In this document: positions 19,551-34,108 of the stretch, in pieces | Layout: every line of letters starts with the position of its first letter | Numbering within the stretch: the stretch's first letter is position 1 | DNA from: an uncultured Clostridia bacterium | GTDB lineage: Bacteria > Bacillota > Clostridia > TANB77 > CAG-465 | Direction: 5' to 3' | DNA: 64,000 nucleotides | Assembly: GCA_944388585.1 (NCBI GenBank) | Contig: CALXJI010000004.1 | Location: 124,001-188,000, forward strand | The notes under the pieces: model-generated | What the model was told of the DNA's origin: nothing | The model's database searches: none | The model's input: the letters and a program-made list of their open reading frames with translations, nothing else | Position numbers and translations under genes: made by a program

Positions 19551-19586
19551 TAATACATAAAACTCACTTCATTTGAAGTGAGTTTT
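19551..19586 (-). terminator. Terminator of the DUF1540 gene
   Basis: 13-bp perfect stem AAAACTCACTTCA / TGAAGTGAGTTTT with a 2-base loop that overlaps the stop codon; the minus-strand tail is TTTTATGTATT. Confidence 0.8.
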
Positions 19587-31375: not shown

Positions 31376-31476
31376 ACTTTACACCTCATAAATATTCTTT
31401 TTAAAAATTGGAAAAATATACTAATTTTTATAATATACAGGAAGAAATTGGTAATAATACTAGTGAGGTGAAAAAA

Positions 31477-32454
31477 ATGAAAAACACAAAAAATATTATA
31501 ATAGTAATAATTGCTATTATGTTTGTTATTTTATTTTCTACTATATTTGCTGCAACTATTACTCATTTTTCTCCTGAATATGGTGTGACTACAGCAAATG
31601 TAAATCTTAGAAATAAACCAAATACAGATTATTCATCTTTTATAAGAACGCTTGATCCTAATACAAAGATTAAACTTGTTGGATCAATAGATAATTTTTA
31701 TATTGTACAACTTGAAAATAATGAAGTGGGTATTATATCTAAAGAATATGCAAAAGTAACAGGAGAAAATGTAAATGCCCTCACTTACACAGATTACTCC
31801 CCATTTCATGCAACAGTAAAGGGAGATAATACTATCGTAAGAGGAGGTCCTTCAACATCATTTAGAGTATATGGAAAATTAAATGCAGGAGACCAAGTAT
31901 ACGTAATTGGAGCAATAGATAATTTTTTACTAGTAATAACTCAAGATAATTTAGTTGGAATGATTAGAGAAGATTTGCTTGAATGTAACTTAGAAGATTC
32001 AAATAATAATTCTAATATAGCTCAAGAAAATACTAATGAACAGGAAAATACAACTCCAAGTACACCAGATTCTAATGCAAATATAGAATACATTCTATCT
32101 AAATTGAATGAAATAAGAAAAGAAAATGGTCTTCCACTATTTACACTAGATTCACTACTTACTGCAACTGCTCAAACTAAAGCTCAAGATATGGTAGCAA
32201 ACAATTATTTTTCTCATACTTCGCCTACATATGGAAATCCCTTTGAAATGATGCAAAATGCTGGGGTAACTTACAAAGCGGCTGGAGAAAATATAGCTGG
32301 AAATAATAATATAGATGATGCTATAAATTCTTTTATGAAATCTAGTGAGCATAGTCAAAATATACTTTCAAATTCATTTAATTATATTGGAATAGGACTT
32401 GAAAAAAGTGAAACATATGGATATGTTATTGTTCTTATGTTTATTGGAAAATAA
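31477..32454 (+). CDS. Secreted protein with two bacterial SH3 domains and a CAP (SCP/PR1) domain
   Basis: 325 residues from ATG 31477, chosen for GAGGTG 6 bases before it; ATG 31408 would add 23 residues without a site. N-terminal hydrophobic signal or anchor about 5-27, then SH3-type repeats: TTANVNLRNKPNTDYSSFI near 40 and DNTIVRGGPSTSFRVYGKL near 118, which usually bind peptidoglycan. A linker rich in Asn and Thr (residues 170-205) leads to the CAP domain: LNEIRKENGLPLF, MVANNYFSHTSP, and AGENIAGN. CAP domains of this type are extracellular and common in Firmicutes; function unsettled. A terminator with an embedded element follows. Confidence 0.9.
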   Translation: MKNTKNIIIVIIAIMFVILFSTIFAATITHFSPEYGVTTANVNLRNKPNTDYSSFIRTLDPNTKIKLVGSIDNFYIVQLENNEVGIISKEYAKVTGENVNALTYTDYSPFHATVKGDNTIVRGGPSTSFRVYGKLNAGDQVYVIGAIDNFLLVITQDNLVGMIREDLLECNLEDSNNNSNIAQENTNEQENTTPSTPDSNANIEYILSKLNEIRKENGLPLFTLDSLLTATAQTKAQDMVANNYFSHTSPTYGNPFEMMQNAGVTYKAAGENIAGNNNIDDAINSFMKSSEHSQNILSNSFNYIGIGLEKSETYGYVIVLMFIGK

Positions 32455-32477: not shown

Positions 32478-32567
32478 AAAAAGTGAACATATAATGAAGT
32501 GAGCCCAAATTATTAGACAAAAAAGTTTAATAAGGAGGAGTCACTTCATAAGCTATGTTTACTTTTT
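32478..32567. terminator. Bidirectional terminator of the CAP gene and guaA, interrupted in its loop
   Basis: The outer arms AAAAAGTGAACATA (32478-32491) and TATGTTTACTTTTT (32554-32567) pair over 14 bp with one G-U and have T runs on both strands. Between them lies a 54-bp palindromic element plus a duplicated TAA. Without the insert the loop would be TAAGC. The whole can still fold as one long nested hairpin. Confidence 0.75.
32495..32548. mobile_element. 54-bp IS3-like mini-element (MITE or deletion remnant)
   Basis: The ends are imperfect inverted repeats: the left 25 bases (TGAAGTGAGCCCAAATTATT...) and the reverse complement of the right 25 (TGAAGTGACTCCTCCTTATT...) match at 18 positions and resemble IS3/IS150-group ends (TG....GACCC...GTTAGACA). 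It is flanked by a TAA direct repeat (32492-32494 and 32549-32551), the 3-bp duplication expected for IS3 transposition. It carries no gene, so any movement would need a transposase in trans. Confidence 0.6.
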
Positions 32568-32572
32568 ATCTT

Positions 32573-34108
32573 TTATTCCCATTCTATTGTTGCAGGAGGC
32601 TTAGAAGTTATATCATAAACAATTCTATTTACATGTTCTACTTCATTAACTATTCTCTTAGATATTTTATCTAATACTTCATATGGAATTTGAGCAAATT
32701 TAGCAGTCATAAAATCATCTGTTATAACAGCTCTTAGCGCTACCATATAATCATATGTTCTTTCATCTCCCATAACTCCTACAGAACGAGTATCTGTTAA
32801 AACTGCAAAATATTGACTTAAACTTTTATCTAAATTACTTTTACTAATTTCATCTCTAAATATATAATCTGCCTCTTTTAAAATATCTAGTTTTTCTTCT
32901 GTTATATCTCCTATAATTCTAATAGCAAGACCTGGACCTGGAAAAGGTTGTCTATTTACCAAATAATCTGGAAGACCTACTTCTTTTCCTACTTTCCTTA
33001 CTTCATCTTTAAATAGATCCCTTAAGGGCTCTATTATTTCTTTAAAATCGACATAATCTGGAAGACCTCCAACATTATGATGACTTTTTATTACCGAGCT
33101 TTTTCCAAGACCACTTTCAATTACATCTGGATATATAGTCCCTTGAACAAGGTAATCTACTGTACCAATTTTTTTTGCTTCTTCTTCAAATACTCGTATA
33201 AATTCTTCTCCTATTATCTTTCTTTTTTTCTCAGGAGAAGTTATTCCTTTAAGTTTATTTAAAAATCTATCTTTAGCATTTACTTTTACAAAATTTACAT
33301 CAAATTTTTCTTTAAATATCTTTTCTACTTCTTCTACTTCGTTTTTTCTAAGGAGACCATGATCTACAAATATACAAGTTAAATTATTACCTATTGCTTT
33401 AGATAAAAGTACTGCTGCAACAGAAGAATCAACACCACCAGATAAAGCACATAGTGCTTTTTTATCTTTTATTTTTTCTTTTAAATTTTCAATTGTTGTC
33501 TTTGTAAAATAGTCCATTTTCCATAAACCTTTACAACCACAAATATCTATTACAAAATTTTCAATTATTTTATCTCCATCTATGGTATGATTTACTTCTG
33601 GATGAAATTGCACGCCATAGAAATTCTTATTTAAATTTTGCATCGCTGCAATTTTACAAGTATTACTTTTAGCTATTTTTTCAAACCCTTTTGGTACACT
33701 ATCTACATAATCTGTATGACTCATAAGACAAATATTACTACTTTTAAATCCTTTAAATAACTTTGAACTATTATCTAAGCTAACCTCCATTTGTCCATAC
33801 TCTCTTTTAGTTGCTCTTTTAACTGCTCCACCAAGAGTATACGCCATAAGTTGCATTCCATAACAAATTCCAAGAATAGGTATACCAAGTTCAAATACTT
33901 CTATATCACATTTTGGTGCATCATCTGCATATATACTTGATGGACCACCCGTAAAAATTATTCCTTTAGGATTTTTCTCTTTTATTTTTTCTATTGATAT
34001 TGTATTGGGAACAACTTCACAATATACATTTTTTTCACGAACTCTTCTGGCAATTAATTGATTATATTGTCCTCCAAAGTCTATTATTAAAATCTCTTCT
34101 TTTTCCAT
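32573..34108 (-). CDS. guaA: GMP synthase (glutamine-hydrolysing)
   Basis: Converts XMP to GMP with ATP and glutamine. 511 residues. Glutaminase half: [19 protein letters not shown] at the N-terminus, [11 protein letters not shown] with the nucleophilic Cys near 81, and [11 protein letters not shown] with His/Glu near 168. ATP-pyrophosphatase half: [15 protein letters not shown] near 217. The C-terminal dimerisation domain ends [11 protein letters not shown] as usual. It starts 12 bases after guaB in one purine operon. Confidence 0.98.

Follow-up and report, generated by a model that had tools for sequence, protein, structure and literature searches.

The window, the whole 64,000-nucleotide stretch of DNA that was analyzed, comes from a 1.57-Mb genome (G000) that belongs to an uncultured clostridial lineage. 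Within it, a CAP-domain gene (positions 31408–32454, + strand) and guaA (32573–34108, − strand) converge; coordinates and strands bear out this arrangement, which a preliminary description of the locus had given. The junction between the two genes reads, in order, AAAAAGTGAACATA, TAA, 54 bp, TAA, GC, and TATGTTTACTTTTT. Its outer parts form a bidirectional terminator in which the left arm, AAAAAGTGAACATA (32478–32491), pairs with the right arm and T run, TATGTTTACTTTTT (32554–32567). Upon removal of the 54 bp and one TAA, the sequence becomes AAAAAGTGAACATA-TAAGC-TATGTTTACTTTTT. The stem and TAAGC loop proposed earlier are thereby restored, but the 14-bp stem is not perfect as had been claimed: it comprises 13 Watson-Crick pairs and one G·T (G·U in + strand RNA, A·C on the other strand). 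A stem followed by a T run, as in intrinsic (Rho-independent) terminators, is predicted on both strands. Our terminator scan, limited to loops of up to 8, did not detect this terminator. Folding of the whole region as RNA gave −38.2 kcal/mol versus −13.5 kcal/mol for shuffles (z = −8.6, 0/200), and for both strands an extended hairpin followed by a T run is predicted, in line with the earlier suggestion that the insert extends the existing hairpin.

Between the two TAA copies (32492–32494 and 32549–32551) lies TGAAGTGAGCCCAAATTATTAGACAAAAAAGTTTAATAAGGAGGAGTCACTTCA (32495–32548), oriented with its left end on the + strand. Its 25-base ends match at 18 of 25 positions, as previously stated, a level reached in none of 20,000 shuffles of the ends. 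Among the relatives searched, the first 44 bases correspond to the left end of ~1.45-kb insertion sequences (ISs) of the IS150 group of the IS3 family. This portion (32495–32538, + strand) comprises the inverted repeat (IRL) and a 5'-UTR hairpin that contains the GGAGG ribosome-binding site of orfA (32534–32538), the same layout that precedes the orfA ATG in full ISs such as L053. The remaining 10 bases, AGTCACTTCA (32539–32548, + strand), correspond to the final 10 bases of the IS right end, judging from other relics and from full ISs whose right ends read TTCACTTCA or TTCAGTACA. The IS3/IS150-like ends noted earlier are thus those of actual insertion sequences, with the left end common to full IS150-group ISs of relatives. 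The 54-mer itself has no open reading frame and so no transposase. No meaningful match to it was found in Rfam, and its exact left end was absent from the viral collection.

Orthologous junctions indicate how the element arrived. In the congener G020, whose CAP is 91% identical, the CAP/guaA junction reads AAAAAGTGAACATA-ATTTTA-TATGTTCACTTTTT, a terminator with an identical left arm that lacks the 54 bp. This empty orthologous terminator shows the CAP/guaA junction to be the site of an insertion. The TAA flanks agree with the proposed 3-bp target-site duplication (TSD), and full-length relatives are flanked by duplications of 3–4 bp. In a second relative, G005 (CAP 96% identical), another gene follows CAP, which makes it uninformative on the insertion. 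The deposited record of a further congener, G010, names it an uncultured Clostridiaceae bacterium (contig CANCXL010000001.1). A long structured terminator of the ordinary kind, without IS ancestry, would account for the single extended hairpin fold and its T runs. The preliminary description had reasoned that such a terminator would be expected if relatives offered neither an empty site nor other copies of the element. Instead, the G020 terminator is empty, and similar 54-mers lie between unrelated genes or form the left ends of full ISs in many other genomes. The empty site and the dispersed copies refute an ordinary terminator, for which we see next to no remaining probability.

The dispersal of the element became apparent when a 161-bp junction query was compared with 57 genomes (the window's own and those of relatives). 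Matches were obtained in 47, and the best of these cover the element only (query positions 53–110) at unrelated sites. Run against 28 genomes of the genus and 287 of the order, a covariance model built from 27 copies had matches in 21 and 218, respectively; most of these matches are insertion-sequence left ends, either complete or decayed. In full ISs, orfA follows the left-end hairpin directly (MSKYSNKFKLEVIKYY...), which places the hairpin's GGAGG as the orfA ribosome-binding site. A complete IS of 1452 bp within the genus (L053) has orfA and orfB in different frames, a right end of ...CCAACTTTTTGGGTTCAGTACA, and the TSD GTA. OrfA carries HTH_28 and HTH_Tnp_1; OrfB scores 343 bits against the NF033516 IS3 transposase model (cut-off, 160) and 84.8 bits for rve (PF00665), and shares 58% identity with E. 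coli IS150 InsK. The OrfB score, the rve domain, and the InsK identity assign the parent to the IS150 group of the IS3 family. This parent combines a DDE rve transposase, two orfs in different frames with helix-turn-helix domains in OrfA, TG...CA inverted repeats, and a 3–4-bp TSD.

A scan of named genomes with OrfB yielded 80 relatives, with uncultured Clostridia at 67–100% identity and more distant sequences (56–66%) from Flavobacterium, Pedobacter, Bacillus, Paenibacillus, Phocaeicola, and Spirochaetaceae. Left-end hairpins are predicted in the distant ISs as well, such as those of Flavobacterium (TGCCCCCAAAAAGTT...TTTGGGGG) and Bacillus (...CAATTGGAGGTGC), mostly at −16 to −35 kcal/mol. 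Over the first 62 bases of the distant Flavobacterium, Bacillus, and Paenibacillus ISs (L249–L297), the hairpin likewise appears conserved across the orfA ribosome-binding site. In a full IS, transcripts entering from outside would carry both left-end arms, which would mask that site. Several arrangements were also recorded at left ends: a second hairpin copy lies directly upstream of L186 (G165:C11:15825) and the left end of L225 is doubled, possibly through nested insertion. Many contigs (G200, G231, G273, G105, G149, and others) stop 20–75 bases within an IS left end, a pattern that would result if these assemblies are broken by multi-copy ISs.

The genome of the window offers no such parent. 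A whole-genome search for the 25-base ends and an IS3-family transposase had been proposed at the outset, and here the prospect of further copies was not borne out: no second 54-mer was detected in the genome when the left end was searched at up to 3 mismatches, nor was any rve domain or OrfB relative. A weak second match (L002), which covers only a terminator arm or T-rich stretch, was rejected as a copy. An inverted pair of TGAAGTGA at window positions 19564–19581 (AAACTCACTTCATTTGAAGTGAGTTTT) proved to be a compact terminator of the usual kind, with no relation to the IS. With no such transposase left in the genome, the relic would be immobile there.

The length and termini of the 54-mer suggest how it arose. 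In the clostridial ISs, a 7-bp direct repeat, GGGTTCA, occurs once in the left-end hairpin (AAGGAGGGTTCATTT) and once in the right inverted repeat (TTTTTGGGTTCAGTACA). For each IS with the full 7-bp repeat, the computed deletion between these two copies gives a 53–54-bp product, TGAAGTGAACCC...AAGGAGGGTTCAGTACA, which matches the window element in length. We therefore consider it likely that the 54-mer is the in-place collapse product of a full-length IS150-group element within a terminator loop. In such a sequence of events, an IS150-group element first entered the loop of the bidirectional CAP/guaA terminator and duplicated TAA, a step shown by the duplication, the empty congener site, and the target preference of the IS group. 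About 1.4 kb of the interior would then have been lost through deletion between the GGGTTCA copies, consistent with the length and with both termini. The 54-bp leftover is self-complementary because the IS left end is itself a hairpin carrying the transposase ribosome-binding site. Being self-complementary and situated in the loop, it would lengthen the terminator hairpin and leave the stem base and T runs untouched. With these intact, termination is probably kept on both strands. No full-length IS was found at the orthologous locus, and the in-place deletion is thus deduced rather than directly seen. The element first described as a mini-element that had landed as such is indeed gene-free and 54 bp long, but it is best interpreted as the remnant of a full-length IS that collapsed.

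The right end bears on a related possibility, namely that the element is an IS left end cut off by imprecise deletion, the right half being a 5'-UTR arm that came by drift to resemble the left one. Many decayed left ends with no accompanying right end occur in relatives, and hairpin arms can homogenize. However, the right terminus TCACTTCA is not IS 5'-UTR sequence (GTTCATTTTTATG), and it stops exactly at the TSD, with the terminator arm directly after; the presence of TAA on both sides, exactly at the ends, already made such a truncation unlikely, and we judge it very improbable. Within the collapse reading, the window right end is AGTCACTTCA, whereas right ends are most often GTTCAGTACA; this implies either a parent with a right end of TTCACTTCA or a later change in the arm. 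Some full ISs (L227 and L242) have right ends that finish in TTCACTTCA, as in the window relic, and relics ending in this way therefore need no extra step.

Among 385 genomes, a strict 54-mer pattern located 18 copies in 17, and the reversed control pattern located none; relics are present in several families of the order. Nearly all of the genomes with a strict relic have just one; G045 alone has two, which differ in sequence. Most strict relics, the window copy included, end in TCACTTCA or TCATTTCA, and two relics (L195 and L213) retain the right-end terminus CAGTACA (GGAGGGCTCAGTACA and TTGGGGTTCAGTACA). A perfect 3-bp TSD is kept by 6 of the 17 distinct strict relics (the window copy and five others) and is lacking in 11. 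Later homogenization of the hairpin arms is possible. In L057 (G045:C6:88261), L055, L152, and L212, replacement of the GGAGG makes the 54-mer a palindrome that is perfect or nearly so (e.g., TGAAGTGACCCCAAATTATTAGAC...GTTTAATAATTTGGGGTCACTTCA), with arms that seem to homogenize over time.

These relics also permit an assessment of whether the 54-mer is a true MITE, a short element that an IS150-group transposase carried into the terminator loop in trans. It is short and non-coding, with terminal inverted repeats and an IS-matching TSD, all traits of MITEs. Near-perfect terminal inverted repeats (TGAAGTGA/TCACTTCA) occur in many relics, which are spread over several families of the order. A TSD flanks the window copy and five other strict relics, and a 54-bp unit mobilized in trans would give one too; the target, a terminator loop, is that of the full IS. 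On the other hand, the multiple copies per genome that typify MITEs are lacking: there is one copy in the window's genome and nearly always one per genome elsewhere (strict copies in 17 of 385 genomes), with no amplified identical copies. In addition, the length equals that of the simple-deletion product, and from the established IS3 mechanism, 54 bp would seem too short for the usual synapsis and circle formation. Copies that are mostly single in their genomes would fit separate collapses better than a multiplying MITE. Although mobilization in trans deserves consideration, we regard it as unlikely and favor formation of the 54-mers in place.

The choice of a terminator loop is not peculiar to the CAP/guaA locus. 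Landing in such a loop, as inferred in the preliminary description, holds for this site and is the usual outcome for the parent IS group. The complete element L053, for example, occupies the site AAAAAGAAGTAACTAGG-GTA[IS]GTA-TCTCTAGTTACTTTTTTT, which is a terminator loop. In a first set of nine full ISs with both ends, the flanks were complementary at < −8 kcal/mol in eight, compared with 17% of mismatched flank pairs (permutation, 0/2000), and eight of the nine had a 3–4-bp TSD. End placement succeeded for 22 close and 37 distant ISs, several of the close ones being copies of the first set. Mean flank pairing was −13.4 kcal/mol for the close ISs (−5.3 kcal/mol for mismatched pairs; 0/2000 permutations) and −12.7 kcal/mol for the distant ISs (−6.7 kcal/mol for mismatched pairs; 0/2000 permutations). 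For some distant ISs of the Flavobacterium type, the automatically placed ends probably lie a few bases inside the true ends, and their TSD counts are not meaningful.

Besides mismatched flanks, shifted sites served as a control for the target preference and gave its clearest test: flank pairing in reconstructed empty sites was compared between the insertion point and sites shifted by 10–100 bp. Pairing peaked exactly at the insertion point. At offset 0, flanks paired at < −8 kcal/mol for a fraction of 0.95 of close clostridial ISs (19/20), 0.71 of distant ISs (24/34; Flavobacterium, Bacillus, and others), and 0.65 of strict 54-bp relics (11/17); at the shifted sites, the fraction was mostly 0–0.25. 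Full ISs and strict relics were used here instead of all "solo" left ends, a test that is diluted because many of these are decayed ISs with a right end elsewhere. Among placed ISs with paired flanks, 35 of 48 have an upstream A run and a downstream T run. By their stems, T runs, and positions after stop codons, the targets are predicted intrinsic terminators. Since mismatched flank pairs pair poorly, the common feature of the targets is a hairpin and not a sequence; flanks from different loci do not pair with one another, and no common target sequence of the REP-consensus type (as for IS1397) was found. We lean toward a broader reading in which a large IS150-like part of the IS3 family (in Clostridia, Bacilli, Bacteroidota, and probably spirochaetes) normally targets terminator loops by structure rather than sequence, and in which the clostridial members repeatedly collapse to 53–54-bp hairpins kept as terminator extensions.

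Several individual sites were also recorded. L137 (G130:C5:109911) is a full IS without a TSD in a perfect GGGACGG/CCGTCCC palindrome that also holds CTGCCAA/TTGGCAG; flanks resembling these occur at L104, L111, L117, and L131, a hint that the target hairpins may be related as a family. Sampled copies of E. coli IS150 (L298–L313) lie mostly at hokA, hokB, mokC, plasmid mok, and Ibs loci, within weak GCCCC...GAGGC inverted repeats resembling Sok/Sib antisense RNA terminators. Their positions are suggestive of a like target habit, but many of the sampled loci are paralogs of one another and are not distinguished by the permutation test; chosen as a negative control, these copies count neither as a control nor as support. 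An additional E. coli copy lies in gltL at AAAGCCC...GGGCTTTTT.

Target choice in the IS3 family is usually described as loose, REP palindromes being the exception. If true, a terminator-loop rule would account for the ability of these ISs to spread while doing genes little harm, and it implies the testable claim that the transposase reads a cruciform, a hairpin, or a paused transcription complex. IS collapse would be a simple source of very short bacterial hairpin repeats and would show how terminators can grow, while the 54-mer could serve genome annotators as a marker of past IS insertions. Neither terminator loops as an IS3 target nor 54-bp collapse products were found in the open-access literature searched, so novelty is unproven.

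Comparison with known systems places the element more precisely. The clostridial ISs resemble E. coli IS150 in their OrfA/OrfB layout, DDE rve, ~1.44–1.45-kb length, TG...CA ends, and 3–4-bp TSD, whereas the window element is 54 bp long and without open reading frames. Unlike E. coli IS150, which has a weak left-end hairpin, the clostridial ISs have a strong one over the orfA ribosome-binding site. IS1397, ISKpn1, and ISPsy8, which are IS3-family elements, have REP palindromes as their targets; ISPsy8 enters at the axis of symmetry and duplicates 3 bp (PMC1525189). The elements described here share with them the family and insertion into a palindrome, and share with ISPsy8 the 3-bp duplication (PMC1525189). 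In contrast, the targets here are loops of intrinsic terminators that are unrelated in sequence and lack a REP consensus, and the hosts are Clostridia, Flavobacteria, and Bacilli. The pneumococcal repeats RUP, BOX, and SPRITE are short, gene-free, mostly intergenic, and hairpin-forming; RUP and BOX have IS-like inverted terminal repeats, and SPRITE is terminator-like (PMC10969869, PMC3049150). Like these repeats and bacterial MITEs, the 54-mer is short, gene-free, intergenic, and hairpin-forming, but unlike RUP, BOX, and SPRITE it is 54 bp long, is present as a single copy, lies inside a pre-existing terminator, and has a visible origin in IS deletion. Finally, in ISPpu9 (IS110 family), the leader of the transposase mRNA folds over the ribosome-binding site and the element is regulated by sRNAs (PMC8450116). 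The leader of the clostridial ISs is predicted to fold in a comparable way, although here, in contrast to the sRNA control of the IS110-family element, the hairpin is the terminal IS end itself.
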